In this document: piece after piece, positions 15,366 to 59,444 of the stretch
Layout of the letters: every line of letters begins with the position of its first letter
Position numbering within the stretch: position 1 is the stretch's first letter
Assembly (NCBI GenBank): GCA_016841745.1
Contig: JAENYO010000003.1
Span: forward strand, 124,001 to 188,000
Length of the DNA stretch: 64,000 nucleotides
Direction of reading: 5' to 3'
DNA from: Acetomicrobium hydrogeniformans
Lineage (GTDB): Bacteria; Synergistota; Synergistia; Synergistales; JAFGMB01
Notes under the pieces: model-generated
Told to the model about the DNA's origin: nothing
Seen by the model: the letters and a program-made list of their open reading frames with translations, nothing else
Databases searched by the model: none
Position numbers and translations under genes: made by a program

Positions 15366-15512
15366 GCTTGAAGTCAGGTTGTTCCCGGTCTTATCAGTGT
15401 CTCCCGGATCAAAGTCTTATCTGGCAAAAAGCTATGATTCTGCAGCATACACCAGCCTATATCAGTGGATCCATGGTATATTAATTTTACTTTCATTATT
15501 AAGGGGGACCAT

Positions 15513-25036: not shown

Positions 25037-25041
25037 ATTTT

Positions 25042-26637: not shown

Positions 26638-26803
26638 TATATTCACCCGATGTAATGAAAATATATGTAGCTTTTAATAATCTATGTTTTCCTTTAGATA
26701 TCAATATACCATAAAGATTTTTTCATAAGATGATCCTTGAATAATATGTTATAAATAGATGATAGTGAATACAAAGTAAATCGTTTTTACCTTTATTGTT
26801 TAG

Positions 26804-26834
26804 TTGAAACCTATTTACATGGTGCAACTATTAC
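26804..26834 (+). promoter_or_regulatory. Possible promoter of the GHKL-Z1 operon
   Basis: TTGAAA (26804-26809) and TATTAC (26829-26834) are separated by 19 bp in the AT-rich space between the divergent dcm and GHKL genes. The boxes are imperfect and the spacing is long. The following inverted repeat would cover the transcription start. Confidence 0.3.
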
Positions 26835-26865
26835 AAACGATCTCCTTAGATTGGAAATCGTTTGT
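26833..26865. promoter_or_regulatory. Inverted repeat upstream of the GHKL ATPase gene
   Basis: ACAAACGAT (26833-26841) and ATCGTTTGT (26857-26865) form a perfect 9-bp inverted repeat with centres 24 bp apart, ending 38 bp before the ATG. It could be an operator or an mRNA hairpin in the leader. No regulator gene is visible in the island. Confidence 0.5.
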
Positions 26866-26903
26866 TTTCAATAATAGAGTCTATTGGAAGAGGGGAATTC
26901 TAC

Positions 26904-28511: not shown

Positions 28512-28512
28512 T

Positions 28513-31164: not shown

Positions 31165-32174
31165 ATTACTCAGAATTGTGTATTGACACGTGGAATCAGC
31201 TTGACACATCAGGTGACCTTATATTTGGGTATAGAACATGTTGTTTAGGCTTGAATGATGATGATAAGACTGATTTACATATTTTTGTAGATGAGCAGAA
31301 TAGATACCACCTGGCAATTATAGTATCAGATGCCATAACAAAAGATATTAAAGATCCACATGTAAATGGGTTGCGAATAGGATTATGTCAGTACAGATTT
31401 GATGATGACAGGGTAAATCAGGTTATTGATTTGACATGCCATATAGGAGGTTACCTTGAAGAGTTTACCGAGATTGTCAGGCAGATAGCCAGGGCGATTC
31501 TGGAAAATGGAGACCTACCTGACATTGCAGTCAATGAGGTAATCAACAGCTGGATCTCCTTCTGGTCCAACCAGCGGAAGGAAGCTTTATCGGAAGAAGA
31601 CCAGATTGGGCTTTTCTGTGAACTGCTAGTTCTTCAAAAGATGTGTGGTATAAACCCCAGTAATGCTATAAATGCCTGGAGAGGTCCACTAGGTGAAAAA
31701 CATGATTTCAATTTTACCGATTGGACTGTTGAGGTAAAGGGCACACGCAGGAAAAAACGCATTCACACAATAAATGGAATTGACCAGTTAAAACGTTTAT
31801 ATAACAAAAATTTAGCATTTGTCTCATTCATGCTGTGTGTTTCTGATGGCGAGAAATCTAGCAATTTGCCTTCTCTGATTGAATCTATAATTCAAGACTA
31901 TTTTCGTGAGAAACCAAATCTAGTTGTCCGGTTTAATGATTTACTCTCCGCCTATGGATATAGCCCAATGCATGAAAGGGAATACAGTAAATTCAATATT
32001 GAAATAATAGAATCATTTTTTTATGAAATTGATGATACCTTTCCTAAGATCATTTCTGACATGTTCAATGAAACTCTTAACCCGAGAGTTTTATCTGTAC
32101 GTTATGATATTTCTCTTGAGGGTATCCAGGGGACAGACTTTCATCAGATTCGTTGGGGAGATTATTGTTATTGA
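31161..32174 (+). CDS. PD-(D/E)XK motif protein (DUF4420), probable nuclease
   Basis: 337 residues. The nuclease signature is HDFNFTDWTVEVKGTRRKK (D182, E191-V-K193), preceded by the helix DQIGLFCELLVLQKM, which holds the conserved glutamate of this fold. This family regularly follows Z1 genes and is thought to cut DNA for the system. It begins in the last codon of the Z1 gene (ATGA overlap). In many such operons an AIPR-family protein comes next; here there is instead a 305-bp gap and a DISARM-like set. Confidence 0.9.
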   Translation: MNYSELCIDTWNQLDTSGDLIFGYRTCCLGLNDDDKTDLHIFVDEQNRYHLAIIVSDAITKDIKDPHVNGLRIGLCQYRFDDDRVNQVIDLTCHIGGYLEEFTEIVRQIARAILENGDLPDIAVNEVINSWISFWSNQRKEALSEEDQIGLFCELLVLQKMCGINPSNAINAWRGPLGEKHDFNFTDWTVEVKGTRRKKRIHTINGIDQLKRLYNKNLAFVSFMLCVSDGEKSSNLPSLIESIIQDYFREKPNLVVRFNDLLSAYGYSPMHEREYSKFNIEIIESFFYEIDDTFPKIISDMFNETLNPRVLSVRYDISLEGIQGTDFHQIRWGDYCY

Positions 32175-32479
32175 TCTTAATTTTTCCGGGATTTGGTTCA
32201 GTTTCCATGTGGATTTCTGACACTGTTCAAAGACAGGGTGACGATTTATGGGTTCTGAGAATATGTCTCTTAATCATGTTCGTTCCGCCAGAAAGACCCA
32301 GAGACTTCAGAGCTTGAAATGACTCTTTTCCATTATAGAGAGAGGTTTTCCCCTATTCGATATGATTTTTAAAGTAACTATTGTTGTATTTAAAGGTACA
32401 TTTATGATTATGATGAAAGTAGTGATAAAAAAACAGGACATTAAATGAAGAAGATCAATGAATTTCCCGGAGGAATAAT
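32175..32479. other. Gap between the GHKL-Z1 set and the DISARM-like set
   Basis: No gene is supported. A 24-codon frame starting near 32250 (MGSENMSLNHVRSARKTQRL) is protein-like but too short to call. I see no clear terminator. The segment just before 32480 is AT-rich and ends in the ribosome site ggaggaat, so a promoter for the second set may lie here. Confidence 0.4.
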
Positions 32480-35050: not shown

Positions 35051-35493
35051 AAATTTGATCCGGATTTTGTGATTATTGCAAGATGTCTAGCTAATATTTC
35101 TTGTGTATTTTCTCTTCTTCGGTAAATTATGTTAATTATGAGAGAGATTTTTATAATTGTATCACTCTTGTTCCAGCCTCAAGATAAACTGAATTTCAAG
35201 CAGAAAAAGATAGTATATTCACGAAGGATTGAATTTCTCCATCAAGGATCAAGTAGAAATGGAGCAAGGAATAAGCAGGTTAATTTCGTCATTTTCTCAA
35301 GACCTTTTTTATTCTTCGGGAATGTCTTGGATGTAACGTTCCGTAATATTTCGAGAGGTTCTGAATCTGTATTAGTTAGCTTTCTGTTAAACTTCAAACA
35401 TAAACAGCAATTCTCAGTTCAGACATCAGATTCTTTTTAACTGTATTTCTCTGATTGTTCTGACTTGTCTTGAGGATAAATAGGGAGGAAATA
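35051..35493. other. Gap inside the DISARM-like set
   Basis: 443 bp without a supported gene. An open frame of 103 codons (35129-35440) has no ribosome site and a non-protein-like composition. A reverse-strand frame over 35270-35380 is open but has no start. No hairpin or repeat stands out. The last 20 bases carry gggaggaa, the site for the next gene. Confidence 0.4.
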
Positions 35494-37341
35494 ATGCCTG
35501 AGTGGACTCAAGAGCAACAAGATGTAATTTATATACACCCCGAGTCGAGGGTTGTTGTAAATGCTGGACCTGGAACCGGTAAAACTGCGGTTGCTTGTGC
35601 CAGAGTTGCAGCTCTTGTTGATAAGTATGATATTGAGCCTTCAAACATCATGCTAATTAGTTTTACAAGGGTTGCTGTTGCGGAAATTCGTGACAGGATT
35701 GCAAAGTATCTGAAGGATAATCAATCTGTTTTTTCGGTAACAATTGCTACTCTTGATTCATTTGCATGGACTTTACATTCAGGTTTTAGAGATAATCTTC
35801 CAAAGCTGGATTATAACGAGAATATTTCCAGTGTTATTAAGCTTGTCCAGACTGATGAAGGTGTGCAGGATTATCTCAAGACTATTGAACATCTTGTTGT
35901 AGATGAGGCACAAGATATTGTTGGCCAGAGGGCGGAATTGATACTGCAGATTTTGGGGCAACTCTCAGAAGATTGTGGTGTAACTGTTTTCTCTGATGAA
36001 GCCCAGGCAATTTATGGTTTTGCTGACGATGAAGAGAGTAATGCTAATGAGAATCAAAGGAGCATGCTTGTTGAGTATATTGCTCAGGCAGATAGTTTGG
36101 ATTTTCAGGCTCTCACGTTGAAGGAAATTCACCGAGTTCATTCAGAAAATTTAAAGTATATTTTCAGTGAAACCAGAGTGAAAGTAATGGAAACGGTTCA
36201 ACACCCTTTACCTGATAGCTGGGAGATCATCAAACAGGAAATTAAAGATCATGCAGATAGGTCAATAGAAGTACCAATCCATAGGCTCCATGAACTTCCT
36301 GAAAATTCGTTTGTTCTCTATCGTCGGAGAGTTGAAGTTCTCCTTGCTTCCTCCTTTATGAGTCTTCGCCAGCATCGAATAAGAATGTCCGGGTTACCTA
36401 CCTGTATTGCCCCATGGGTTGGAGCTTGTCTTTCAGGTCATACAGAGCCTAAGCTTCAGGAAAAGACCTTTCTTCAACTTTGGGTTGAAAATGTTTCAGA
36501 AGAATTATCAGGTTCTCTGGAGCCTGAAAAAGCATGGGATATGCTTTTCCGTACTGCAGGTGAGAATGCAAATCAGGTTGACATGAGCTGTCTGAGGAGG
36601 CGTCTTGGGAGAAAAAAGCCACCTTCCGAGTTTTGTCTTCCAACTGTTGGATTCAATGGCCCGCTTTTCGGGACAATACATGCCTCAAAGGGCAGAGAGG
36701 CTGATCATGTATTCTTGATGTTTCCTCAAAACGGAGGAAATAATAATGGTGATGCAGGGGAAGAAATAAGAGTGTTGTTTGTTGGTGCTACCAGAGCTCG
36801 TGAAACTCTTGTTGTTGGTGATGGTTACAGACACTGGTCCAGTACACTTTTAACAAAGAAACGTAACTATCATATTCATGATGACCATTATGTACAGGTT
36901 GAGTTCGGCAGGGAAAATGATATCGACGCATTGAGTATTGCTTCAAGGGAAATTATTGATCAGACTGCTCAGAAAATCCAGAAGAACCTGAGAGATATTG
37001 GAACTAATCCTATAGAAGTTAATGTATATCAGCTTCCTAACCATGCCTTTAAAATCTTTTCTTCTGAAAAGTGCATGGGTTATTTGAGTCTGGGAGTTAA
37101 CTCAGACCTTTTTAAGATTGGAGATGCAATCCAGACAGATTACGGTGGCTACAAACGTAAACCCCCGAGAGAAATCAATCACCTTAGAATAATGGGGATT
37201 AGAACAATTGTCCTGCCTCCTGATTCGCCGATTTGCGAAAAACTCTGGGAACCCTGGTCTTCAAGCGGTTTAATTCTTGCACCTGTTATTGTGGGTTATC
37301 CAAAATGTTATTTCCCGTTCCAGGCCCGAAGAAGATATTAA
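35494..37341 (+). CDS. SF1 (UvrD/Rep-like) DNA helicase of the DISARM-like set
   Basis: About 615 residues, near the lower end for UvrD-type helicases. Motifs: WTQEQQDVIYIHPESRVVV (Q motif), GPGTGKT (25-31, Walker A), SFTRVAVAEIRDRI (Ia), VVDEAQD (137-141, II), VTVFSDEAQAIYGF (III), LFGTIHASKGREADHVFL (V) and LFVGATRARETLVVG (VI). It should unwind or translocate on DNA using ATP. The ATG at 35494 lies behind gggaggaa. The drmA gene starts about 19 bp further on. An SF1 helicase here is not part of the standard DISARM gene list. Confidence 0.9.
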   Translation: MPEWTQEQQDVIYIHPESRVVVNAGPGTGKTAVACARVAALVDKYDIEPSNIMLISFTRVAVAEIRDRIAKYLKDNQSVFSVTIATLDSFAWTLHSGFRDNLPKLDYNENISSVIKLVQTDEGVQDYLKTIEHLVVDEAQDIVGQRAELILQILGQLSEDCGVTVFSDEAQAIYGFADDEESNANENQRSMLVEYIAQADSLDFQALTLKEIHRVHSENLKYIFSETRVKVMETVQHPLPDSWEIIKQEIKDHADRSIEVPIHRLHELPENSFVLYRRRVEVLLASSFMSLRQHRIRMSGLPTCIAPWVGACLSGHTEPKLQEKTFLQLWVENVSEELSGSLEPEKAWDMLFRTAGENANQVDMSCLRRRLGRKKPPSEFCLPTVGFNGPLFGTIHASKGREADHVFLMFPQNGGNNNGDAGEEIRVLFVGATRARETLVVGDGYRHWSSTLLTKKRNYHIHDDHYVQVEFGRENDIDALSIASREIIDQTAQKIQKNLRDIGTNPIEVNVYQLPNHAFKIFSSEKCMGYLSLGVNSDLFKIGDAIQTDYGGYKRKPPREINHLRIMGIRTIVLPPDSPICEKLWEPWSSSGLILAPVIVGYPKCYFPFQARRRY

Positions 37342-37360
37342 ATGAATGGAGGATGTCTCA

Positions 37361-40300
37361 GTGAAAAATTCAGCTAGAGAAAGCATTCTTTCAAGGCTAG
37401 TAGAAGATCTTGTCGGCCCACATGATGAAGAAGAAATATTGGAAGGAAGACCATCTGATACATATATCACAGGAATTCTATGGCCAATGCAGACCCAGAT
37501 GTTACCAGATGAAGATGAAAAAATTTCTTCCAACTCGTCACTTAATGGGGATGAGCCTCTTTCTGGTGAAGAAGAAGAGGTATCATTCAGGGCTCTGATA
37601 AAGCCCAGTGTAGCTGGATTGTCATTTGCTATTTCCTCAGTTGAACTGACTCTGTCCCTGTCCCTGTCAGTATCTTTTGGAATATATAGGCCATTTCATG
37701 AATCTATCCCAGAAGGGGCAGATAGAAAATGTAGTATGAAAAAGAACTTTAACACCTCATTATGGAAGCGTAGTGTTTACAATATTTCTGACATTATATG
37801 TGAAATTTGTCCAGGGACAAGAAACATTGATCTGGATACTTTCGGGGTACCTTCTGGAGTCTGTCTTAATATAAGGACTGTCCCGTGGGAGGAGGGGAAA
37901 TTGCTTGTTACTGTAACCCTGCTTAACAAGCAGAATGAAGGAAATTTTATGAACAGGGAATCCACAGAGAAATTAACTCTTTTCCAGACTCGGGTTGAAA
38001 TTAAACCACGAGGTTCAACCAGGTTGATAGCTCGACCTTCCCGGCGACCTATAGTTGATGAAAATGACATGTCTTCTGCTTTACTTTATCGCCACGTACT
38101 TGAATATGCGGTAGGGCATACCTGTTCTGCTTCATGGACCGAATCTGATGAGCCAGGAATAGCAAGTTCTGTATTTACAGAATGGGTTCCAAGGGCGAAT
38201 GTCAGAAGTATTGATCCCAATGGCCATGACTACTTCAGGGATCTTAACACTTTAGGAGATATCGATCCATTATCCGCCGATTGGCTCTCTAGAGCTGATG
38301 ATAACCAATTGACCAAAGCTCTTGAAATGGTACCCTCCATCTACGGTAAATGGATTGAGGAACAGAAGGGTAAGATAGAAGAAGTTCCAGAAGAATTCAA
38401 AAATCAGGCTTACAATAACCTCTCAGGATGCAAAGAAGCTCAGGAAAGAATGCTTAATGGAGTAGAATCCATTGCAATTGACTCATCCAAAGCTAAGGCC
38501 TTTAGATTTGCCAATGCTGCCATATCACTTCAGAATAGCTGGGATGAAAAAAAGAGCACAAGAGGATCTTTTCGCTGGCGCCCTTTCCAGATTGGCTTTC
38601 TACTTATCGCTGCAAATTCAGCGATAGATCCATCTGATGCATACAGAGACACAATGGATCTGCTATGGTTTCCTACAGGAGGAGGTAAAACAGAGGCATA
38701 TCTTGGATTAATAGCTTATCTTCTTTTTTATAGACGTTTTTCTTCAAGACCTGATGATCAAGCTAAACCAAGAGTCAATGCAATTATGAGATACACATTG
38801 AGAACATTAACAACACAGCAATTTGACAGAGCTGCGTGTCTGATATTTGCTTGCGAAGTTATTCGCCGGAATGAAATCTCAGAAACTGCTCCATTAGGTT
38901 TAGGAACAGAACCTTTTTCAATTGGACTCTGGGTTGGTTGTGAAGCAACACCAAACAGATTTGAGGATGTTCCCGTAAATCCTATGACAGCAACAGAAAA
39001 AACGCCTGCCCAATTGGTTTATTGTCCTGCATGTCATCATAAAATCTATTGGGAAAGGGTGGTTGAAAAAGGGAGTGTTGAGGCGAGGTGCAGGAACAGT
39101 AAATGTCCACTCTTCCATGATTCTCAACCCTTGCCAATATGGACTGTCGATGAAGATATTTATAGGTGTAAACCTTCACTCGTTATAGGAACAGTAGATA
39201 AATTTGCTCAGATAACAAGAAATCCCAAAATAAAAGATTTTTTTGGTATAGGTGATTGTCCTCCTGACCTGATAATACAGGATGAACTTCACCTAATTTC
39301 TGGACCTCTGGGGACAATTGCTGGTCTTTATGAGGTCGCGATCGATAGACTCTTTTCTTGCGCTTTTCACAAACCTAAAATAATAGGTTCGACAGCTACA
39401 ATCCGGAGAGCAGGTGATCAGGTAAGAGCTCTTTTTGATCGAAGGACATGTCAATTTCCTCCACCTGCGTTAGATGCAGATGATTCCGGGTTTGCCGTGA
39501 CAGACTTAAATGCTCCTGGTAGATTGTATGCTTCAGTTACTACTGCTGGGAGATCTGCTAAATTTACTTTACAGGCAGTTGCTTCATCACTACTTCAGTC
39601 CGCCAAGTTTGGTATCTCTGATACAGAAACAAGAGACCCTTACTCGACCTTGGTTTCATATTTTAACTCAAGGCGTGAGCTCGGAGGTGCACTTGTAATG
39701 ATGCAGGATGACGTGAGGAAAAGCATGGAAATCTTCGGAAAAATAAGAAGAGAAGAAACCCGTTCAGTTAATCTCGTTGAAGAAATGACCTCAAGAAGAA
39801 ATCAGACAGAAATCCGGGATTTACTCCAAAGCCTTGGCGTCACTTGTGATCATGATGGATGTGTTGATGTCCTTCTGGCTACGAATATGCTTAGTGTTGG
39901 GGTTGATATTCCTAGACTTGGACTAATGCTTGTTAATGGGCAACCAAAGGGTATTTCAGAGTATATTCAGGCTACCAGCCGCGTCGGCAGGGGAAATGTT
40001 CCTGGACTTATAATTTCAGTCTTGAATAATGTAAAGGCGAGGGACAGATCCCACTATGAATCTTTTGTAACATGGCATTCATCATTATACCGTGATGTCG
40101 AAGTCAGTAGTGTTACACCATTCGCCTCCAGAGCAAGGGACAAAGCTCTTCATGCAGCACTTGTTGCCCTTGTAAGATGTCTTGTTCCCGGAATGCTCGA
40201 AAAACCTGATCCAAAACTATTGCAAGGACAAATTTTGGAGGATATCGTGACTTATATAGTAGGAAGAGCTTCTTCAGTGGATCCAAAAGAGACTGCTATT

Positions 40301-40510
40301 GAATCAGAACTCAGAAATCTTATTGTAAGATGGAAACAGATGAACCCCAGGCATTATTGGAATCCCAGGAATCGGCAGGATTCACTGTTGCAGGATGCAG
40401 AGAAGGCTGCTGAAGAACTGGCAGCAGGTAATCTTGTTTCAGCCGCATGGCCAACTCCAAACACTATGAGAAGTGTGGAGCCATCAACGAAGTTTTTTCT
40501 AAGGGGGTAA
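37361..40510 (+). CDS. drmA: DrmA-like SF2 helicase of DISARM
   Basis: About 1049 residues. An N-terminal domain (1-420) precedes an SF2 helicase core: FPTGGGKTEAYLGL (Walker A, about 438-444), IIQDELHLISGPLGT (DELH near 641) and IIGSTATIRRA (motif III). The second RecA domain has LATNMLSVGVDIPRLGLMLV and YIQATSRVGRG. A zinc-binding insert with CPACHH and CRNSKCPLF lies between motifs I and II. This matches DrmA, which with DrmB forms the core DISARM complex that blocks incoming phage DNA. The GTG at 37361 is preferred, being 8 bases behind ggagg; an ATG at 37346 overlaps that site. drmB begins 5 bp after the stop. Confidence 0.9.
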   Translation: MKNSARESILSRLVEDLVGPHDEEEILEGRPSDTYITGILWPMQTQMLPDEDEKISSNSSLNGDEPLSGEEEEVSFRALIKPSVAGLSFAISSVELTLSLSLSVSFGIYRPFHESIPEGADRKCSMKKNFNTSLWKRSVYNISDIICEICPGTRNIDLDTFGVPSGVCLNIRTVPWEEGKLLVTVTLLNKQNEGNFMNRESTEKLTLFQTRVEIKPRGSTRLIARPSRRPIVDENDMSSALLYRHVLEYAVGHTCSASWTESDEPGIASSVFTEWVPRANVRSIDPNGHDYFRDLNTLGDIDPLSADWLSRADDNQLTKALEMVPSIYGKWIEEQKGKIEEVPEEFKNQAYNNLSGCKEAQERMLNGVESIAIDSSKAKAFRFANAAISLQNSWDEKKSTRGSFRWRPFQIGFLLIAANSAIDPSDAYRDTMDLLWFPTGGGKTEAYLGLIAYLLFYRRFSSRPDDQAKPRVNAIMRYTLRTLTTQQFDRAACLIFACEVIRRNEISETAPLGLGTEPFSIGLWVGCEATPNRFEDVPVNPMTATEKTPAQLVYCPACHHKIYWERVVEKGSVEARCRNSKCPLFHDSQPLPIWTVDEDIYRCKPSLVIGTVDKFAQITRNPKIKDFFGIGDCPPDLIIQDELHLISGPLGTIAGLYEVAIDRLFSCAFHKPKIIGSTATIRRAGDQVRALFDRRTCQFPPPALDADDSGFAVTDLNAPGRLYASVTTAGRSAKFTLQAVASSLLQSAKFGISDTETRDPYSTLVSYFNSRRELGGALVMMQDDVRKSMEIFGKIRREETRSVNLVEEMTSRRNQTEIRDLLQSLGVTCDHDGCVDVLLATNMLSVGVDIPRLGLMLVNGQPKGISEYIQATSRVGRGNVPGLIISVLNNVKARDRSHYESFVTWHSSLYRDVEVSSVTPFASRARDKALHAALVALVRCLVPGMLEKPDPKLLQGQILEDIVTYIVGRASSVDPKETAIESELRNLIVRWKQMNPRHYWNPRNRQDSLLQDAEKAAEELAAGNLVSAAWPTPNTMRSVEPSTKFFLRG

Positions 40511-40515
40511 ATGAT

Positions 40516-42348
40516 TTGCCAAATAATCAGTTGGGGGAATTACGTCGCAGTTCGATTATTTCGCTATTTGGGCCTGGCTCAATAGTCGATTTCAGGGCCG
40601 ACGGGGCTCCTGTATCTGCAATAATTTCCGGTCTTGAAGCATGGGATAATACTGCCCCCCCGAGAGGAACTCGGAATCCACAAAGTATCCATGAACCTCG
40701 TCTAGAGAAAAAACTCATTGTTAGTGGTTTCAGGCTCCCACCAGTGCAGATTTCTGTTTCTAGAAACAATCCAATTCAAGGTAGGCTTGTGGCGTATCGT
40801 TTCCCGGATTGGCTCCAATGTCCAATGTGCGGGGTAATTGCCCCGTCGAAAAAATGGAAAAGTGATCCTGGAAAGACATATCGTTATTGTGCAACCTGCA
40901 CAAGCAGGATGCCAGGTAGAAAAAAAGTTTTCGCAGTTCCAGTCCGATTCATTTTTGCATGTGAAAAAGGGCATCTTGATGAATTTCCCTGGCATTACTG
41001 GGTTGAGCATAAAACGGGATGTGCCAATACCAGTGGAAAGTTGTTGCTTAAATCTGAGAAGCCAGGCCTTTCCGGTCTTTTCCTAAGCTGTCCAATATGT
41101 AGCTCCAAAAGGTCTATGGATGGAATTTTTTCTGCATCAACCTGGGAAAGATTCCATTGTAAAGGTCGCAGGCCGTGGCTAGATTGTGAGAATGAAGAAT
41201 GTACCCGGAAACCCAGAGTTTTACAAAGAGGGGCATCGAACGTCTATTTTCCTTTTATTGAATCAGCACTGAGCATTCCTCCCTGGTCCGATCGACTTCA
41301 ACACTATCTTGGGGTTTACTGGTCCCCACTTATTAATACTGCAGAGGAGGACAGGTCCAGTTTTATCCGAATGCTGGCAAGGGGCCCTTTGCAAGCCATT
41401 TTGACAGAGCTAAGAATGACTCCAGATGAGTTGGCAAGGGAAATCCAGTTGAGGGTTGAAGCAATCTCCTGTTCAGAAGATACACAGAACAGTATCAGGA
41501 AGGAAGAGTACTTTCAGCTAGACTCAGGAATTAATACTGAGCCTGACAATTCGGAAGAATTTGAAATACGCAATGAAACTATTCCAGAATCTCTTGCACC
41601 CTTTCTTTCAAGAATTGTAAGAGTCGTCAGACTTAGAGAGGTCCGTGTATTAAAAGGATTCACAAGAATTAATCCCCCCGAGGGACAGTCAACTAATTTC
41701 GCCAAACTTTCACAAAACAGACTTGACTGGCTTCCTGCTGTTGATGTCAGAGGAGAAGGAATATTCCTGGCCATAAATAAGACACAACTTATAAGCTGGA
41801 AACAGAATGAATCTGTAAAAAAACGAATACTACGTATACAGGAAGAGTATGACGCTGAATGCCACAATAACAGCGAGAACAGAAGTCACGAGTTGAGTAT
41901 TACCCCTGAGTTTATACTTGTTCATACTGTTGCGCATGTTCTCATGAGACAACTTACAATGGAATGTGGCTATTCAAGTGCTGCCCTTCGGGAAAGGCTT
42001 TATGTGGATGAAGAAGGTATGGCCGGGTTACTGATTTACACTGCAACACCAGATACTGATGGTACTCTCGGAGGACTCCAGCGCCAGGGAAAGTCTGAAA
42101 GGATTGAAAGAGTGATTCGGGGGAGCATCGAGGCTGTTCAATGGTGTTCATCAGATCCATTGTGTATCGAGGGTATCATGGCTGGACCTGGTTCATGCTC
42201 AAATGCTGCATGCCATGCCTGTGTTCTAGTGCCGGAAACTTCATGTGAATATTTCAACCGTTTCCTGGATCGAGCACTCCTCGTGGGCTTGCCAGATGAT
42301 CTTGCCGTTGGCTTTTTCTCAACTCTGAGAGGGATTGGAGTTGAATAG
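40516..42348 (+). CDS. drmB: DrmB-like DUF1998 protein of DISARM
   Basis: About 610 residues. The N-terminus has LRRSSIISLFGPGSIVDF, the typical FGPG motif. Several zinc-type cysteine groups follow (CPMCGVI, YCATC, CEKGHLDEFPWHYW, CPICSS). The C-terminal DUF1998 domain reads HTVAHVLMRQLTMECGYSS and ALRERLY, then CSNAACHACVLVPETSCEYF with NRFLDRALL. DrmB partners the DrmA helicase. The TTG at 40516 is chosen because aaggggg lies 7 bases upstream and it avoids a 64-bp overlap with drmA; an ATG at 40447 exists inside drmA. The NERD-helicase gene follows after 2 bp. Confidence 0.9.
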   Translation: MPNNQLGELRRSSIISLFGPGSIVDFRADGAPVSAIISGLEAWDNTAPPRGTRNPQSIHEPRLEKKLIVSGFRLPPVQISVSRNNPIQGRLVAYRFPDWLQCPMCGVIAPSKKWKSDPGKTYRYCATCTSRMPGRKKVFAVPVRFIFACEKGHLDEFPWHYWVEHKTGCANTSGKLLLKSEKPGLSGLFLSCPICSSKRSMDGIFSASTWERFHCKGRRPWLDCENEECTRKPRVLQRGASNVYFPFIESALSIPPWSDRLQHYLGVYWSPLINTAEEDRSSFIRMLARGPLQAILTELRMTPDELAREIQLRVEAISCSEDTQNSIRKEEYFQLDSGINTEPDNSEEFEIRNETIPESLAPFLSRIVRVVRLREVRVLKGFTRINPPEGQSTNFAKLSQNRLDWLPAVDVRGEGIFLAINKTQLISWKQNESVKKRILRIQEEYDAECHNNSENRSHELSITPEFILVHTVAHVLMRQLTMECGYSSAALRERLYVDEEGMAGLLIYTATPDTDGTLGGLQRQGKSERIERVIRGSIEAVQWCSSDPLCIEGIMAGPGSCSNAACHACVLVPETSCEYFNRFLDRALLVGLPDDLAVGFFSTLRGIGVE

Positions 42349-42350
42349 TA

Positions 42351-44033
42351 ATGGCAAAAATGTGGCCGCGCAAACTCCCAATTGATATTCTTGAAAACCC
42401 CTTAAGGAATTCTGAGATAAAAGTTTTTAATAAACTTCAGAATCAGCTTGGTGACAGATTTGTAGTTTTCTATTCACGACCATGGCTAGGTTTAAAGCCC
42501 AATGGTGAGGAAATAGATGGAGAGTGTGATTTTGTTATAGCTGATCCCGAATCAGGTGTACTAGTAATTGAAGTTAAAGGAGGAGGTATTAGACATGATC
42601 CCATATCTGGTACCTGGACAAGTACGGATCGGATGGGTTTCAGGCACAGAATCAAAAACCCTGTGGAACAGGCAAGATCATCAAAACATATTCTTCTTGA
42701 AAAACTGAAGAGATCTCATGGTGGATTTCAACGATATATTCATATTCGACATTGTGTCATTTTCCCAGATTCTTCAAAACCAGGACAGGACCTTGCTCCA
42801 GATATGCCTCTTGAAATGTTTTGTTTTATCGAAGACTTTGAAGATAACTTTATACACTGGATCAAGTCGAGATTAACGTTCCCAGAAATCAATCAGGGGC
42901 AAACCCGGCCTCTTGGAAATGATGGGATAAGAGCCCTCGAAAATCTTCTTGCCCGACCTTTTCATCTCAGGACTCCTTTGGGGCATATCCTCAAAGAAAG
43001 TGAGAAAGAGATTCAGATTCTCACGCAACAGCAATATCATATTTTGAATGCAATAAGGGAAATTCAACGGGCTGCTATTGCAGGTAGTGCAGGTACAGGA
43101 AAAACTGTTCTTGCCATGGAAGAGGCAGTCAGGTTTTCTGAAAGTGGAGCCAGGACATTATTTACCTGTTTCAACCGGGCTTTGGCAGATTTTGTAAGAA
43201 AATCTATTCAAAATAGTTCATTACTTCATGTATCAGGTTTTCATGGCTGGTGTTTCTCAATAATCAAAGAGGCTGGTTTTGAAAGACCAACTGGAAGGAT
43301 TCCTGGGAATTTTTTTGAGGAAACTCTGCCTGAACTAACTCTTCAGGCACTGGAATTACTTCCTGAACAACGGTTTGATGCAATTGTGATTGATGAAGGG
43401 CAGGATTTTTTACCATTCTGGTGGCCAGTTCTGGATGCGGCTTTGTCAGAAAATGGTCCCAAGTTGTTACGCGTTTTTTATGATGATAACCAGAAAGTGT
43501 ATGGGAAAAGGTTATCTCTTCCAACTGAAATTATTGCTGTTCCAATAAGGCTTGGTTTTAATTTGCGAAATACAAAAAGAATTCATGAAGTCTCAAGGCA
43601 GTATTACCGGGGACCAGAAGTTACAGCAATTGGCCCTTGGGGACTTCCTGTTGATTGGATTAAAGTAAATGTTGAAAACCAGATATGGGTTAAGTCACTT
43701 AATTGTGCAAGGCACATGATTGGTACAGATGGAGTTTTGCCAGAAGACTTGGCAATTCTAGTGATAAATGAAGACGAAATCAGAATATTAGAGGATCAAA
43801 AGAATATATCAGGGTGTCATCTTAAAACATGCAGATGCGATAATCCTCTTGTTGGTCATGTTGTTATTGATACGTTGCGTCGGTTCAAGGGACTAGAGAG
43901 ATCTGTTGTGATTATGCCAGCAAGTAAAGCTTTGATGCGGGAACCTGAATTGGTTTATGTAGGATTGACTAGAGCCCGCACCCATCTTTCTATTGTTGGT
44001 GAAGAATCGGTAGTAGAACAAATCAAGATTTAG
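42351..44033 (+). CDS. NERD nuclease-SF1 helicase fusion of the DISARM-like set
   Basis: 560 residues. The NERD nuclease-like domain (about 15-135) shows the PD-(D/E)XK core GECDFVIADPESGVLVIEVKG (D60, E74, K76). An SF1 helicase follows: Walker A GSAGTGKT (245-252), TCFNRALADFV, AIVIDEGQDFLPFWW (348-352), FYDDNQKVYGKR and a C-terminal VYVGLTRARTHLSIVG. It couples DNA translocation to cleavage. It starts 2 bp behind drmB, exactly where DISARM operons usually carry the phospholipase-D nuclease DrmC, so it may supply the nuclease activity instead. That substitution is an inference. A terminator lies 270 bp downstream. Confidence 0.88.
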   Translation: MAKMWPRKLPIDILENPLRNSEIKVFNKLQNQLGDRFVVFYSRPWLGLKPNGEEIDGECDFVIADPESGVLVIEVKGGGIRHDPISGTWTSTDRMGFRHRIKNPVEQARSSKHILLEKLKRSHGGFQRYIHIRHCVIFPDSSKPGQDLAPDMPLEMFCFIEDFEDNFIHWIKSRLTFPEINQGQTRPLGNDGIRALENLLARPFHLRTPLGHILKESEKEIQILTQQQYHILNAIREIQRAAIAGSAGTGKTVLAMEEAVRFSESGARTLFTCFNRALADFVRKSIQNSSLLHVSGFHGWCFSIIKEAGFERPTGRIPGNFFEETLPELTLQALELLPEQRFDAIVIDEGQDFLPFWWPVLDAALSENGPKLLRVFYDDNQKVYGKRLSLPTEIIAVPIRLGFNLRNTKRIHEVSRQYYRGPEVTAIGPWGLPVDWIKVNVENQIWVKSLNCARHMIGTDGVLPEDLAILVINEDEIRILEDQKNISGCHLKTCRCDNPLVGHVVIDTLRRFKGLERSVVIMPASKALMREPELVYVGLTRARTHLSIVGEESVVEQIKI

Positions 44034-46022: not shown

Positions 46023-46814
46023 TCAGTCCAGTTTCATTCCTATTTCCAGACCCATTTTTTTATAATGAGGTTCCAGCGGGTATTCTTCTTTAAGTGTAAA
46101 TTGCACAGGAAGTCCGCCATCTGCTTCTCCTACTGCATCAAGGGCTTCAACAAGTTTTTCAAGTTTATTAACGGGGAAACTGAAAATGATCTCGTTATCC
46201 TGAGCTGCTGCTCTTCTTCTGTCCCCGCCACAGGGTACAACAACCTGAAAACTATTTTCCAGCATAGTTGGGATTACCGCATATACGCAGGCGGCATGCG
46301 CAGAAATCCTTGAATATATATCATTTCCATCGATCCAGTTCACGGCTCTCATAATATGAGTTAACTGGGATGGATCACAGTATATTATTACGACATCAGG
46401 AGATCTGTCCTTTGGGAATAAATATAGAGGAGCGGAAAGCACTCCCTGGTATTTCCCTACCTCGAAACGCGGCATGTTGGAAGCCCATTGTTTCCCTGCT
46501 TCAAGAGAACTTGCAGTTCCGGGATACCTGTTATGCCCCTCCAGAAAATCTTCTGGTGGAGTAGCCAGGCCAAATCCCACAACTGGTTCAAAGCACCACA
46601 TATCATCCATTGTCATCAACAGGGACATTTTGCTTCTTCTGGATAAAGCAAAACCCTGGCAAGTGGATAGATGATAGCCCAGATCTTTATAAGGCTGAAG
46701 AAATCCATCTGGTTTTTCTTCTCCGTACTTCAGCATCCCAATGCCCAATGGTTCTGTTCTCAGAAAAAGATGTTTCCTGAGTTTCGCAGAACAGTCTTCA
46801 AGATTGATAGCCAT
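46023..46814 (-). CDS. DUF169-family protein, copy 1
   Basis: 263 residues covering one DUF169 domain: LFLRTEPLGIGMLKYGEEKP at the start, HLSTCQGFALSRR with a conserved cysteine, CFEPVVGFG with a second one, and HAACVYAVIPTMLENSFQVV with CGGDRRRAAAQDNEIIFSFP near the end. The family has no established activity; the conserved cysteines could bind a metal or cluster. No signal peptide is present, so it is cytoplasmic. Copy 2 at 52449-53240 is nearly the same along its full length and about 60 bp upstream. gaggagg lies before the ATG. It is divergent from a photolyase-like gene. Confidence 0.9.
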   Translation of the reverse strand: MAINLEDCSAKLRKHLFLRTEPLGIGMLKYGEEKPDGFLQPYKDLGYHLSTCQGFALSRRSKMSLLMTMDDMWCFEPVVGFGLATPPEDFLEGHNRYPGTASSLEAGKQWASNMPRFEVGKYQGVLSAPLYLFPKDRSPDVVIIYCDPSQLTHIMRAVNWIDGNDIYSRISAHAACVYAVIPTMLENSFQVVVPCGGDRRRAAAQDNEIIFSFPVNKLEKLVEALDAVGEADGGLPVQFTLKEEYPLEPHYKKMGLEIGMKLD

Positions 46815-48966: not shown

Positions 48967-49473
48967 ATTCACATAAAAAAATTGGGGTCAGATCTAGAAT
49001 TAGCAGTTTTCATGAATGCCGATCCCTGGAAACAGGATATACTCCAAAACTGGCCATAACTATGATCTGAATTACAAACTGGGTACAAATAGCATTCAAA
49101 CTTTTGTCCGGAAAATGGGAATTGCCGGAGCTAGCGAGAACAGATCCTGCAGATACGGGGATCTGTTCTAATTCTTTGCCGGGATCCGCAAGTCTGTGAA
49201 CACCCATTAAGGAACCATTTTCTCCTATATGTTATAATAATAAACAATATTTCATTTTAGTGTTTCCCTCTGGGGTTTTCATCGGGTCTAAGGCCCTCCG
49301 ATGATCCCAAAGAATTTTTACCCTGTTTAATGGAACGTTCTATAGGCCTTTTGCCTTCTTTAAGCTGAAGAAGGTCCAGTTTTGTGTTGCTTTCTCACGG
49401 GATATTCAGGAATGAACATATCCCGGAGGATGTCTATTGGTGAAGCATTTATAGAGAAGAGAGGAGTTTTTGT
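48967..49473. other. Leader and gap upstream of the betaine-type binding protein
   Basis: No gene is supported. It holds the motif ggggtcagatctagaattag (48985-49004). A CATCGG / CCGATG hairpin lies near 49278-49303, and a perfect 8-bp hairpin CGGGATAT / ATATCCCG sits at 49398-49425, about 50 bp before the ATG. The last could be a leader structure. No clear promoter can be assigned. Confidence 0.4.
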
Positions 49474-50484
49474 ATGAGAAATGAGAAAAAGAGCTTGAAG
49501 GCTATTGGCGGGTTTATTCTGGCAGTTTTATTACTTTTCGGAGGTATTAACCCCGGATATTCCGCTGACGAAAGGATAACTTTTGGCGACTTCAGCTGGG
49601 AAAGTGTCCAGTTCCATAACCGCGTGGCCGGTTTTCTGATAGAAAAGGGATGGAACCGGGAAGTTGGATATACATTTGTTGAAGAGATCCCTGGTTTTAT
49701 GGGACTCGAAAGAGGGGATCTGCAGATCGCTATGGAAGCATGGATAGATAATTCTGCTTCTTACTGGGAAAAGGCTGAAAAACGCGGGGAGATAGTGAGC
49801 CTTGGCAAGAATTTCCCCGATGCACCACAGGGCTGGTATGTACCAACATACATTATCAAAGGTGATGAAGCCCGGGGTATCAAACCAACGGCACCAGATC
49901 TCAGATCCGTTACAGACCTTCCCCGCTATTGGGAACTTTTCAAGGATCCGGAAAAGAAGACAAAAGGACGTTTCAACAATGGGCCATCGGGGTGGATAGT
50001 CAGCGTGACAAATGCTAAACGCCTGGAATCCTACGGGCTTGATGAGACCTTCGTGAATTTCTATACTGGCTCAGCCGCAGCACTTGCTATTTCGATCGCT
50101 GAGGCCTATGAAAAAGGTAAACCAGTGCTGGCATATTACTGGGAACCAACACCTATTCTTGGAATGTATGACATGACTAAACTGGAAGAGCCTCCCTATG
50201 ATAAAAAAGTCTTTGACGAAACAGGAGGCTGTGCATTTCCAAAATGCAGAGTCCTCAAGGTAGCTAATCGTGAGTTCCTGGAAGGTTCACCGGAGATACG
50301 GGATATGCTCGAACATTATCAGACTTCTCTTGAACTGACGAATGAAGCTTTAGCTTACATGAAGAAGAATGGCGTAGGCCCGGTTGAAACCGCAAAATGG
50401 TTCCTGCAGTCACACTCTGAATTGTGGAAATCATGGGTCAGCGATCCAGAAGCAGTGGCAAGGATCAGTAAGGCCCTTCTTTAA
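49474..50484 (+). CDS. Glycine betaine/carnitine/choline-type ABC transporter binding protein (OpuAC domain)
   Basis: 336 residues with a signal peptide (residues 1-30, GFILAVLLLFGGINPGYSAD) and an OpuAC-type domain: ITFGDFSWESVQFHNRVAGF, LQIAMEAWIDNSASYWEKA, NNGPSGWIVSVTNAKRLESY and GKPVLAYYWEPTPILGMYD. Family members bind quaternary ammonium compounds in an aromatic cage, and several W and Y residues occur at likely sites. No ABC ATPase or permease gene is adjacent, so it must work with a distant one. A gagaggag site precedes the ATG. The next gene, 14 bp on, encodes a carnitine/choline acyltransferase homologue, which points to a quaternary amine substrate. Confidence 0.87.
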   Translation: MRNEKKSLKAIGGFILAVLLLFGGINPGYSADERITFGDFSWESVQFHNRVAGFLIEKGWNREVGYTFVEEIPGFMGLERGDLQIAMEAWIDNSASYWEKAEKRGEIVSLGKNFPDAPQGWYVPTYIIKGDEARGIKPTAPDLRSVTDLPRYWELFKDPEKKTKGRFNNGPSGWIVSVTNAKRLESYGLDETFVNFYTGSAAALAISIAEAYEKGKPVLAYYWEPTPILGMYDMTKLEEPPYDKKVFDETGGCAFPKCRVLKVANREFLEGSPEIRDMLEHYQTSLELTNEALAYMKKNGVGPVETAKWFLQSHSELWKSWVSDPEAVARISKALL

Positions 50485-50498
50485 AGGAGAATCTTACG

Positions 50499-52265
50499 TT
50501 GCTCAATTCCAGAAAAATAATTGCATCAGCTCCGACAGGGAAAATACCTTTATGGTCCTTTCCACCTCTGGAAAAAACCTGTGATCGAATGCTTGAATGG
50601 GCAAAACCCTTGCTTTCGGATAATGAATATGGGGAGAGCCTGCAAGCGTTACAAAGCTTTCTAAGACCTGGAAAGGAGGGGGAGATCCTGCGCGCTGAAC
50701 TTGATACCCTCTACCCCTCCGATCCGGAGGTCCTCAAATGGATGCCTTACTGTGAGAAATGGTATCTTTCTCACAGATCATCTCTGTCTGTTCTGAGTAA
50801 CCCCTTTTACCTTCTGGATCCCAGGGGAGAAGAACTGGGAATAGATAATGCAGAACTTGCGGCAAGGGCAGTACAGACTATTCTAAAGTTCTACAAAGAT
50901 GTCCAGGAGGGTGCAATGGAACCCGACTTCTGGAAAAATCAGCCCTTATCTATGGAGCAGTATGAAGATATTATTGGAGTGACCCGGATACCAGAAAAAG
51001 AATTTGATAAGAACATCCGAACCAGAACGGACTGGATCGCTGTTATATGCAATGGACATATCTTCCGGCAAAGAGTCCTGGATGATAATGGGGATCTTTT
51101 GCCCGGCAAAGGGCTGGCAAGGTCTTTTGCTTCCATCCTCCGTATCTGCAGGGAACCTGAACCATTTCCACTTGCAGCACTAACCTGCCTGCCAAGGCCA
51201 AGATGGGCATCTCTTAGAATAAGCCTTATGCAAAATTTTCCATCTGTTGCAAAGGCAATTGAAACTGCTGAGCACAGTCTATTTGTGCTATGTCTGGATC
51301 AACCAGGATCAATGAATGACGAAGATCTTTGCAGGGAACTACTGTATGGTAACCCGGGGAGCCGATGGTTTGACAAATCATTACAGCTCGTTGTCTTTGG
51401 AAAAGGCCGGATGGGCATCAATTTCGAACATTCCAGGCTGGACGGAACACCTATGGGGCGCTTTGTCCGTTATCTATGCAATGGAACCAGAAAGTACAGC
51501 CTGAAGCCTGGAGAAGCTCCCCTTGCAGAGGAAGTGACTCCCCTGGCAGGGGAAGACCTTCAGGAAGCAGTTATGGAAGCCCAAACATGTGCATACAGTC
51601 TTTTTTCAAAGACTAACCTGAGCCTTCTGCATTTCAATGAGTTTGGCAAAGATCGGATAAAACAACTTGGCGTTAGCCCTGATGGATTTCTCCAGACAGC
51701 CCTCTTTCTGGCACAGCATCGGGCATGGGGAAAAGTCCGCACAGTATTTGAATCGGTCATGATGCGACAATTTCGACATGCACGGACTGATGGTATGCGT
51801 CCCTTTAATTCCGGAACAAAACAGTTCCTGGATATGATGGATAGAAAAAACATTGATCGCAATGAATGTGCGAAAGCTCTGCGAACCACAACAGAAATAC
51901 ATAGAGACAGAATTTCCCTATGTATGAACGGAGAAGGGATCGATGGTATCCTGATGTTACTTCTAGCCATCGCAGAAGGAAAGGCTGGAAACAGGCCTCT
52001 TGATCCCTTGCCAGATATCTACCAGAGCCCGGCATGGAGGGTTCTGCAGGATATCGGGATCACCACCAGTACAACTTCGGGAGAAGGGATCGAATCTGGA
52101 GGTTACGCACCCGCAGTGGATGACGGACTGGGTGTTCGTTACCTTCAGCGCCCTGATCACCTTATCCTTTCAGTTACCGGATTCAGCCCGTATGAGGCAG
52201 ACCGGACAGCATTTATTGAACAGCTTCCTGGTGCTCTTCGAGACATGGAACAAGTCCTGTCCTGA
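50499..52265 (+). CDS. Carnitine/choline O-acyltransferase family protein
   Basis: 588 residues, the size of eukaryotic carnitine and choline acyltransferases. Landmarks: the N-terminal LWSFPPLEKTCDRMLEWAKP, RWFDKSLQLVVFGKGRMGIN followed by FEHSRLDGT with the catalytic H311. Further on are FGKDRIKQLGVSPDGFLQTA, HARTDGMRPFNS, ITTSTTSGEG (counterpart of the STS loop) and DGLGVRYLQRPDHLILSV. The enzyme would move an acyl group between CoA and carnitine or choline. The start is TTG at 50499, 9 bases behind aaggag. It shares an operon with a betaine-type binding protein. Homologues are common in eukaryotes and sparse in bacteria. The actual acceptor is unknown. Confidence 0.88.
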   Translation: MLNSRKIIASAPTGKIPLWSFPPLEKTCDRMLEWAKPLLSDNEYGESLQALQSFLRPGKEGEILRAELDTLYPSDPEVLKWMPYCEKWYLSHRSSLSVLSNPFYLLDPRGEELGIDNAELAARAVQTILKFYKDVQEGAMEPDFWKNQPLSMEQYEDIIGVTRIPEKEFDKNIRTRTDWIAVICNGHIFRQRVLDDNGDLLPGKGLARSFASILRICREPEPFPLAALTCLPRPRWASLRISLMQNFPSVAKAIETAEHSLFVLCLDQPGSMNDEDLCRELLYGNPGSRWFDKSLQLVVFGKGRMGINFEHSRLDGTPMGRFVRYLCNGTRKYSLKPGEAPLAEEVTPLAGEDLQEAVMEAQTCAYSLFSKTNLSLLHFNEFGKDRIKQLGVSPDGFLQTALFLAQHRAWGKVRTVFESVMMRQFRHARTDGMRPFNSGTKQFLDMMDRKNIDRNECAKALRTTTEIHRDRISLCMNGEGIDGILMLLLAIAEGKAGNRPLDPLPDIYQSPAWRVLQDIGITTSTTSGEGIESGGYAPAVDDGLGVRYLQRPDHLILSVTGFSPYEADRTAFIEQLPGALRDMEQVLS

Positions 52266-52380
52266 ACCTGAGCTGAATATGGAAATAGAGGCAGGGCTTG
52301 ATGTAGAAGTATTGCGTCCAATTACAGCTGAGATGTTTTGTGGTTACAGCAAAAAGAGCGGTTTACATAATATGTGCTCA

Positions 52381-52422
52381 TAAAACTCAGGGGGAAGCGT
52401 TTACGATTCCCCCTGAGTTTTA
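52381..52422. terminator. Hairpin between the acyltransferase gene and DUF169 copy 2
   Basis: taaaactcagggggaa and its complement form a perfect 16-bp stem with a 10-base loop. A/T ends on both sides allow it to terminate transcription in both directions between convergent genes. It corresponds in position to the hairpin after DUF169 copy 1. Confidence 0.8.
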
Positions 52423-52448
52423 TGATGGTTCTCTTCTTACAGGTATTC

Positions 52449-53240
52449 TTAATCCAGTTTCATTCCTATTTCCAAACCCATTTTTTTATAATGAGGTTCC
52501 AAAGGGTATTCTTCTTTAAGTGTAAATTGCACAGGAAGCCCGCCATCTGCTTCTCCTACCGCATCAAGTCCTTCAACAAGTTTTTCGAGTTTATTAAAGG
52601 GTAAACTGAAGATGATCTCGTTATCCTGGGCTGCTGCTCTTCTTCTGTCCCCGCCGCAGGGGACAACAACCTGGAAATTATTTTCCACCATAGTGGGTAT
52701 TACCGCATATACGCAGGCGGCATGGGCAGAAATTCTTGAATATATATCATGTCCATCGATCCAGTTCACGCCTCTCATAATATGGGTTAACTGGGATGGA
52801 TCACAGTATATGATTACCACATCAGGAGACCTGTCCTTTCCAAATGAAGATAAAGGAGCGGAAAGAACTCCCTGATATTTCCCTACCGGGAAACGCGGCA
52901 TGTTGGAAGCCCACTGTTTCCCCGCTTCAAGAGAACTTGCAGTCCCGGGATACCTGTTATGACCCTCCAGAAAATCTTCTGGCGGAGTAGCCAGGCCAAA
53001 TCCCACAACTGGTTCAAAGCACCACATATCATCCATTGTCATTAACAGGGACATCTTGCTTCTTCTTGATAATGCAAAACCCTGGCAAGTTGATAAATGA
53101 TAGCCCAGATCTTTATAAGGCTGAAGAAATCCATCCGGTTTTTCTTCTCCGATCTTCAGCATTCCAATGCCCAATGGTTCTGTTCTCAGAAAAAGATGTT
53201 TCTTGAGTTTCGCCGAACATTCTTCAAGATTGATAGCCAT
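52449..53240 (-). CDS. DUF169-family protein, copy 2
   Basis: 263 residues, almost the same as the protein at 46023-46814; most differences are single conservative changes (KIGEEKP for KYGEEKP, PVGKYQG for EVGKYQG, SSFGKDRSPD for LFPKDRSPD). All cysteines of copy 1 are kept. agggagga precedes the ATG. The upstream 60 bp, and part of the downstream DNA, also resemble copy 1, so the duplicated unit was larger than the gene. It converges with the acyltransferase gene. Function unknown; the repeated association with the betaine-type cluster may hint at quaternary amine metabolism. Confidence 0.9.
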   Translation of the reverse strand: MAINLEECSAKLKKHLFLRTEPLGIGMLKIGEEKPDGFLQPYKDLGYHLSTCQGFALSRRSKMSLLMTMDDMWCFEPVVGFGLATPPEDFLEGHNRYPGTASSLEAGKQWASNMPRFPVGKYQGVLSAPLSSFGKDRSPDVVIIYCDPSQLTHIMRGVNWIDGHDIYSRISAHAACVYAVIPTMVENNFQVVVPCGGDRRRAAAQDNEIIFSLPFNKLEKLVEGLDAVGEADGGLPVQFTLKEEYPLEPHYKKMGLEIGMKLD

Positions 53241-57613: not shown

Positions 57614-57735
57614 TGAAAGTCAATTAGAGGTTCCAACCTATCAATTCTTTGTCAAGAGGTTGAAAAAATTCTCCAACATTGAATTGAGTAATCCAAAATA
57701 TTTTTGAACAAGTGTGAACACAGGAGGTGTTGTTT

Positions 57736-59031
57736 TTGAAATTGACAAGTAAAGAGCAAAAGATGCTTTCCGGAGAAATGGGGCTTGCAAGACAGAAGGC
57801 TATGGAGCTTTTAGTTAAATATGGAGAAGCGCTAGGGGCAGATTCTTTTGTAGATACACGCAATGTCCATTCGTTAACACCCTTTTATTTTTATCCCGAT
57901 GTACTTAATTCTTATTTAGATATAAAGGATATGGATGATTTTATTTCCAAATCAGTATTGGATTCTGATGAAAAAGTAATAATAGATGAGCTTGAAGCAT
58001 TCACAAGTTCGCACATCTATAGTGTTGATCTTGACCATTTGGACTTTTTAGAGGCCAGCAAAGGAAGAGATCCGGCAAATTTCAGAGAAATGGTTGTTTC
58101 AATGAGAGATTATTGCAAAAAAATTGGAATGACTATGATGTCAACTTGTACTCCCTATACTTCCGGTAATGTGCCAAGGTTTGGCGAGCATTGTGCCTGG
58201 ACTGAGTCTTCTGCTATTTCTTATCTTAATTCGGTAATAGGTGGCAGGTCTAATATTGAAGGGGATCATAGCTCTTTTGCCAGTGCTGTGACTGGAAAGA
58301 CACCTTATTGGGGTTTTCATATCCCGGAGAATCGGTATGGGAACGTTATTGTTCAAGTCGAATATCAACCCAAATCATTGCAGGATTGGGATTTACTTGG
58401 TTACTCTACCGGTTTTGAGGTTGGTTTAGATATCCCGATCTATTCCAATATTGAACAACAGGGAAGTATGTGCAATTTTATGGCATTGAGTTCTGCTGGC
58501 GCTGCGAGCGGAGCAATAGTGATGTATCACGTTCTGGGGCAGACCCCGGAGGCCAAGACATTAGATGAAGCTCTTGGCGGGAGGAACGAGAAATATGTCA
58601 TTACTTTTGGCAATGATGAAAGAAAGAAAGCCTATGAAAAGCTGAATTGTGCTCATGATGAACATGTTGAATATGTTGTTTTGGGTTGTCCCCACTATCC
58701 GCCAGAACGACTGAGAAAAGTTGCATCTTTGCTTGAAGGGAAAAGGATAAACCCTGGTGTGAGCTTGCTTATATTTACATGTTTCCAGCATAAAGCTCTT
58801 GCGGAGAGAAATGGATATCTCGAGATTATAGAGAGGGCAGGAGGAAAAGTAGTAATAGATAGTTGTCCATTGAACACCAAAATAGCCCCCTCGAGAATAG
58901 TGGCCACTGATGCAGCGAAAATTGCCCATACTAGCGGGGGTATGAAGGGGTGGACCGATGTGTGGTATGGAACTCTTGAAGAATGTATCAATGCGGCTGT
59001 TACCGGGAAATGGGAAGGTGAGCTAAATTGA
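57736..59031 (+). CDS. Aconitase X large (catalytic) subunit
   Basis: About 431 residues. The family opening KLTSKEQKMLSGEMGLARQK is present, followed by MTMMSTCTPYTSGNVPRFGE, AWTESSAISYLNSVIGGRSN and GVEL-like turns. Cysteines occur in YVVLGCPHYPPERL and VIDSCPLN, with GGMKGWTDVWYGTLEECI at the end. The cysteines are those that hold the iron-sulfur centre in AcnX enzymes. Known members dehydrate cis-3-hydroxy-L-proline or phosphomevalonate. The start is TTG at 57736, 8 bases behind aggagg; a GTG at 57727 overlaps that site. It overlaps the small-subunit gene by 4 bp. The flanking TRAP systems suggest a carboxylate or hydroxyproline-like substrate. Confidence 0.9.
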   Translation: MKLTSKEQKMLSGEMGLARQKAMELLVKYGEALGADSFVDTRNVHSLTPFYFYPDVLNSYLDIKDMDDFISKSVLDSDEKVIIDELEAFTSSHIYSVDLDHLDFLEASKGRDPANFREMVVSMRDYCKKIGMTMMSTCTPYTSGNVPRFGEHCAWTESSAISYLNSVIGGRSNIEGDHSSFASAVTGKTPYWGFHIPENRYGNVIVQVEYQPKSLQDWDLLGYSTGFEVGLDIPIYSNIEQQGSMCNFMALSSAGAASGAIVMYHVLGQTPEAKTLDEALGGRNEKYVITFGNDERKKAYEKLNCAHDEHVEYVVLGCPHYPPERLRKVASLLEGKRINPGVSLLIFTCFQHKALAERNGYLEIIERAGGKVVIDSCPLNTKIAPSRIVATDAAKIAHTSGGMKGWTDVWYGTLEECINAAVTGKWEGELN

Positions 59032-59444
59032 AAAAGATTACGCTAAAAGGAAGAAAAATATTTGGTGGGAAAGCAAAAGGGAAAGCGTTAGTATCTCATA
59101 ATCCGGTGGCCTTTTGTGCGGGTATAGACCCAAATACAGGTGAAATTACGGAAAGGGGTCATGAACTTCAGGGAGAAATACTCAAAGATAAGGTCCTGGT
59201 CTTCCCCTGCGGAAAGGGATCTTCCGCCTTTTCAAAGGCGGCTTATGCATTAGCCCTGGCGGGTAATAGCCCAGTCGCTTGTATTATTGAAAAAGTTGAC
59301 CCCAAAACAGCATTAGCTTCAATTGTTATGCATACTCCGACCATAGCTGAAGTGGAGGAAGATCTTTTCTCGGTAATCAAAACGGGAGATACGGTAGAAA
59401 TAGATGCAGATTTAGGAGAGATTTCAATATATAAAAATAGTTAA
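59028..59444 (+). CDS. Aconitase X small (swivel) subunit
   Basis: 138 residues forming the swivel domain: LKGRKIFGGKAKGKALVSHN at the start, DPNTGEITERGHELQGEILK, VLVFPCGKGSSAFSKAAYAL (the conserved PxGKGS) and IEKVDPKTALASIVM. It closes over the active site of the large subunit. It begins with TTG inside the last codons of the large-subunit gene, so production is coupled. Many AcnX proteins have both parts fused; the split form is common in bacteria and archaea. Confidence 0.92.
   Translation: MKKITLKGRKIFGGKAKGKALVSHNPVAFCAGIDPNTGEITERGHELQGEILKDKVLVFPCGKGSSAFSKAAYALALAGNSPVACIIEKVDPKTALASIVMHTPTIAEVEEDLFSVIKTGDTVEIDADLGEISIYKNS

Follow-up and report, generated by a model that had tools for sequence, protein, structure and literature searches.

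A carnitine/choline-type acyltransferase paired with a ProX-type receptor in an Acetomicrobium operon: a candidate for acyl transfer to a choline-like acceptor

To our knowledge, work on carnitine and choline acyltransferases has been done almost wholly in animals and fungi. What, then, does a member of this family do in an anaerobic bacterium, encoded directly behind the gene of a solute receptor, and which acceptor would it use? The question is raised by an operon in the window analysed here, a stretch of 64,000 nucleotides from Acetomicrobium hydrogeniformans. Its features are as follows.

49460-49466, + strand: ribosome-binding site AGAGGAG of the receptor gene (read from the sequence)
49474-50484, + strand: ProX/OpuAC-type substrate-binding protein (the receptor), 336 residues (PF04069, PDB match, pocket alignment)
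49684-49686, + strand: codon of receptor Glu71 (pocket alignment)
50484-50489, + strand: ribosome-binding site AAGGAG of the acyltransferase gene, overlapping the upstream stop codon and lying 9 nt 5' of the TTG (read from the sequence)
50499-52265, + strand: choline/carnitine-type acyltransferase, 588 residues, clade B, TTG start (PF00755, fold, pocket alignment, trees)
51429-51431, + strand: codon of His311, the equivalent of CrAT His343 (alignment)
52378-52425, + strand: intrinsic-terminator-like hairpin ending the two-gene operon (folding energy against shuffles)

A full-length acyltransferase in a two-gene operon

The receptor gene ends at 50484, leaving the gap of 14 bp to the acyltransferase gene that a preliminary description of this DNA had given, and the hairpin downstream folds at -34 kcal/mol (z -8.96), with none of 200 shuffles equally good. 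That description had also called the second gene a carnitine/choline acyltransferase homologue in a bacterial operon, keeping full length, the catalytic histidine and an STS-like loop, and all of this agrees with what we found. Residues 22-576 match PF00755 (E 3.6e-122; 409 bits against a Pfam cut-off of 22.3), covering positions 4-572 of the 574 in the profile. A sequence search of the PDB returned CrAT, CPT2, ChAT and COT at the top (E 3e-50 to 4e-35), similarity being highest to CrAT and CPT2, not ChAT. The AlphaFold model, made from 15 family members, has a mean pLDDT of 87.9 and a pTM of 0.88, and its two-domain fold superimposes on CrAT over 572 residues (Z 43.7, rmsd 2.0); matches to other families, such as condensation domains and wax synthases, score no higher than about Z 16. 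The open reading frame at 50499-52265 is thus truly related to the carnitine and choline acyltransferases of animals. No NCBIfam model named any of the bacterial acyltransferases tried, which were those of Synergistota and of one Clostridiales genome.

His311, in the motif FEHSRLDG, which fits the pattern (Y/F)EH...(E/D)G, aligns with the catalytic His343 of CrAT. Loss of this histidine in close relatives had been named beforehand as a finding that would speak against the enzyme, and the alignment shows the residue in all bacterial relatives that cover the position. Asp315-Gly316 is retained, and the STS loop reads T-T-S, Ser552 (CrAT numbering) having become Thr and Ser554 being kept. Judged by the conserved catalytic residues and the predicted fold, the protein is very probably an active CoA-dependent enzyme, in line with the activity first proposed for it.

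Several other features of the window deserve mention. Two DUF169 genes, at 46023-46814 and 52449-53240, both on the minus strand, encode 263 residues each and are about 92% identical in DNA; the pair, a recent duplication, flanks a photolyase-like gene and the operon. Positions 24623-44033 hold a dense anti-phage defence island with genes for a Vsr nickase, a DrmMII-like cytosine methyltransferase, MzaB-, MzaC- and MzaD-like proteins, a DrmE-like protein, a GajB-like helicase, DrmA, DrmB and a NERD-helicase, suggesting that Mza- and DISARM-like systems adjoin there. Between two TRAP transporter sets, the large and small (swivel) subunits of an Aconitase X are encoded at 57727-59444; by profile they are kin of cis-3-hydroxy-L-proline dehydratase, far under its cut-off. 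Finally, the transporter-like genes at 11946-13109 and 15465-16676, 3.5 kb apart, have nearly identical N-terminal stretches, a local duplication.

Residue changes at the acceptor sites of both partners

Established work on CrAT and ChAT has Arg518, Tyr452 and Thr465 contacting the carboxylate of carnitine, and carnitine enzymes differ from choline enzymes at positions 106, 465, 467 and 518, the last being Asn in ChAT. A search of open-access text found no paper with both CrAT labels R518 and T465 plus carnitine. The pocket alignment places W88, F417, G432 and G483 of the window acyltransferase at CrAT positions 106, 452, 467 and 518, so that Ala106 is replaced by Trp, Tyr452 by Phe, Thr467 by Gly and the carboxylate-binding Arg518 by Gly. 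Met564 is also Gly, a change that, as in the CrAT variant M564G, should open the acyl pocket. The residues that ChAT has at 465, 467 and 518 (Val, Asn, Asn) are likewise absent, the window enzyme having Thr, Gly and Gly. For COT and ChAT, the sequences analysed were those from the PDB.

The window acyltransferase belongs to a clade of 17 bacterial enzymes, clade B, which a branch at 100/99 sets apart from the other sequences in two trees; ChAT joins CrAT, also at 100/99. Position 518 is Gly in 15 of the 17 and Ala and Arg in one each, position 467 is mostly Gly, position 106 is Trp in all except L036, and Thr465 is retained. Arg518 is present in CrAT, COT, CPT2 and every enzyme of a second group, clade A, whose members also keep Tyr452 and Thr465, a second copy in the host genome included. 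The single Arg518 of clade B is that of L036, where the enzyme has regained or kept it and no receptor adjoins. One further PF00755 fragment, L083, on a 3.2 kb contig (G174 contig 312), groups with eukaryotic enzymes at 99/97; it may be eukaryotic DNA contaminating a metagenome bin and was excluded from the second tree for that reason.

The receptor matches PF04069 at E 7e-46, and its best PDB match is a distant receptor, DmpX (7yle; E 3.7e-33). In DmpX, which binds DMSP, the ligand sits in a cage of four Trp residues, its carboxylate held by Thr64 and Ala153 (PMC10030565). The aromatic cage is intact in the window receptor (W42, W90, W174 and W223, with Y221), and, in the alignment with this distant protein, the position of the carboxylate contact Thr64 is taken not by Ser or Thr but by Glu71.

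The two proteins travel together. The same receptor is encoded directly upstream of 11/17 clade B enzymes, with gaps of -14 to +24 bp, at loci spanning five families (f1, f3, f4, f9 and f10). A branch at 100/99 likewise separates these receptors from the rest, and they branch in nearly the order of the enzymes; they are 60-68% identical to the window receptor, the enzymes only 32-52% to the window enzyme. A twelfth locus, L079, retains only part of the receptor gene, which has suffered an internal deletion, beside an enzyme frame that is still open. Glu occupies the Thr64 position in 10 of the 11 paired receptors (L080 has Val) as against 0/31 other ProX-like receptors of the same order, four of them from the host genome, most of which carry Ser or Thr there. 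In three f6 genomes with Gly518 enzymes we found no ProX-like receptor, so such an enzyme can do without a Glu receptor; at the f6 loci analysed (L039-L041) a family-3, amino-acid type ABC system, whole or in part, adjoins the enzyme gene.

Relatives of the operon and the host genome

Outside clade B, transport genes are again found beside the enzyme. The clade A enzymes of L028, L077 and L078 are encoded by the last genes of ProX-ProV-ProW operons (the L078 ATPase scores above the NCBIfam proV cut-off), and in their receptors Ser stands in place of Glu71; at L134 and L135, Arg-keeping enzymes adjoin an ABC ATPase, two permeases and an OpuAC receptor. A third group, C, comes from Bacillota (L120, L121 and L122); in these enzymes position 518 is Gly, Gly and Thr, and position 465 is Ile. 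Two of its three genes adjoin one for a ProX-type receptor with Glu at the Glu71 position, and the third a glycerophosphodiester phosphodiesterase gene, so that Bacillota too hold a Gly518 enzyme beside a Glu receptor, the combination of the window pair. We considered an independent loss of Arg518 in group C. The trees separate B and C, yet a common origin was not rejected (p-AU 0.25 for the enzymes, 0.49 for the receptors), and group C is therefore not counted as an independent replicate.

Two further neighbourhoods were observed. At L133:8401-12059 the gene of a Thr518 enzyme precedes, on the same strand, that of a membrane glycerophosphodiester phosphodiesterase, a type of enzyme that can free choline from glycerophosphocholine. 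In the f4 genomes at L034, L035, L036, L037 and L075, the acyltransferase gene adjoins divergently oriented genes for methylmalonyl-CoA mutase subunits and a MeaB-type protein.

Overall, the PF00755 family is rare and patchy in bacteria, and found in anaerobes. It occurs in 30/188 Synergistota genomes, in 4/398 genomes sampled from the phylum of a Clostridiales locus (L044), in 11/198 genomes of that locus's order and in 0/14 control genomes; a search of plasmids gave no match to the acyltransferase. The scan for relatives returned none with a single-protein query and 14 loci with an alignment-based query. Because the counts are low across the genomes searched, the earlier characterization of the family as largely eukaryotic was fair.

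The host genome, of 3.04 Mb, carries the operon on contig C14, a ProXVW set on C6 and the second acyltransferase copy, which keeps Arg518, on C7, adjoining butyrate kinase and an amino-acid-type ABC system. A role in quaternary amine breakdown, as first suggested, finds no backing there: of the three choline-degrading genes sought, MttB and BCCT were not found, and CutC was represented only by a sub-threshold glycyl-radical enzyme, of which E. coli shows one too.

These data bear on an ordinary carnitine acyltransferase, for which the receptor would import carnitine and the enzyme make or use acylcarnitines, other contacts replacing the arginine. The greater similarity to CrAT and CPT2 than to ChAT, the retained Thr465 and Ser554 and the Arg-keeping relatives in ProXVW operons would suit it. 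Set against this are the changes at Arg518, Thr467, Ala106 and Tyr452, the Arg-keeping copy that the host already has on C7, and the Glu at the carboxylate contact of the paired receptor, and we regard it as unlikely. The preliminary proposal, import of the acceptor followed by its acylation, accordingly divides: its link to a quaternary-amine receptor holds across families and extends to the ProXVW operons, and, of the acceptors that it named, carnitine is probably wrong and betaines such as hydroxyproline betaine are unsupported, given Gly for Arg518, Phe for Tyr452 and the receptor's Glu.

A proposed choline-like acceptor and comparison with known systems

The contacts that would grip a carboxylate are absent from both proteins, so the solute is likely to be a choline-like alcohol and not carnitine or betaine. 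We therefore favour, at a probability of roughly 0.55, CoA-dependent acyl transfer to or from a carboxylate-free cationic alcohol, for example choline, that the receptor would deliver. From the fold, the catalytic residue, the operon, the conserved pairing and the residue swaps in both partners we infer a route, with its permease, acceptor, acyl group, direction and physiological role, as follows. Outside the inner membrane, the secreted ProX-type receptor would bind a small cationic solute and pass it on to an ABC permease of the ProVW type, shared and encoded away from the operon, presumably by the set on C6 of the host genome (G000); the title of Chen et al. 2010, cited in PMC10030565, gives a precedent for one ABC transporter sharing several receptors. 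In the cytoplasm, His311 would serve as the general base as an acyl group moves between CoA and the hydroxyl of the solute, which is most likely choline or a similar alcohol, or else an acyl ester of one. Since the reaction is reversible, it could serve as a store for short or branched acyl groups arising in amino-acid fermentation, or imported acyl esters could be scavenged as acyl-CoA. The divergent methylmalonyl-CoA mutase-type genes (L034-L037, L075) hint at a propionyl or branched acyl group.

The acceptor might instead be a different cation, such as an amino alcohol, a sulfonium compound or one with a second positive charge pairing with Glu71. Trp106 together with Gly467 and Gly518 gives a pocket shape found in neither CrAT nor ChAT, the f6 enzyme genes adjoin ABC genes of the amino-acid type, and the closest solved receptor has a sulfonium ligand. 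We nevertheless consider such an acceptor rather improbable, as the four-Trp cage, typical for quaternary ammonium and sulfonium ligands, is intact, and so are Ser554 and the aromatic residue at 566, which face the trimethylammonium group in CrAT. That the pair is degenerate or the enzyme inactive, the operon being maintained for osmolyte uptake by the receptor alone, would fit the better conservation of the receptors but is highly improbable, with His311, Asp315-Gly316, the Ser-loop and the fold all preserved and with L079 having a broken receptor and an enzyme that is still open.

Extending the choline-like reading beyond this operon is more tentative. Clade B, and perhaps group C, may be choline or choline-like acyltransferases that arose apart from animal ChAT through loss of the arginine and a switch to Glu in the receptor, and the pair could represent an overlooked way in which anaerobic amino-acid fermenters make or scavenge acylcholines, though we hold this to be somewhat less probable than its alternatives taken together. 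If true, matched changes in a bacterial clade and its dedicated receptor would be a natural experiment in changing the acceptor of this fold, and acylcholine chemistry in anaerobes would gain a candidate class of enzymes. Production of long-chain acylcholines was recently reported for Limosilactobacillus reuteri, in a text that makes no mention of an acyltransferase (PMC12803358); we do not claim that L. reuteri uses the PF00755 family.

Among known systems, CrAT (PDB 1t7q, 2h3p, 1ndb) shares with the window acyltransferase the fold over some 570 residues, the catalytic histidine, Thr465 and Ser554, at about 25% identity, and differs at 518, 452, 467, 106 and 564. ChAT (PDB 1q6x, 2fy2) is alike in fold (Z 42-43.6), in a residue other than Arg at 518 and in Tyr at 566, but has Val and Asn at 465 and 467 in place of Thr and Gly, and Met at 106 in place of Trp; the two are not sisters in the tree. 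The clade A enzymes of Synergistota (the C7 copy, L028, L077 and L078) belong to the same family, and three of them share an operon with a ProX-type receptor; unlike the window operon, they keep Arg518, their receptors have Ser, and ProV and ProW are encoded alongside. On the receptor side, DmpX (7yle, PMC10030565) and other ProX-type receptors share with the window receptor the four-Trp cage and the equivalent of Tyr200, whereas DmpX holds the carboxylate with Thr64 where the window receptor has Glu71, and the gene of the window receptor has no ABC genes beside it.
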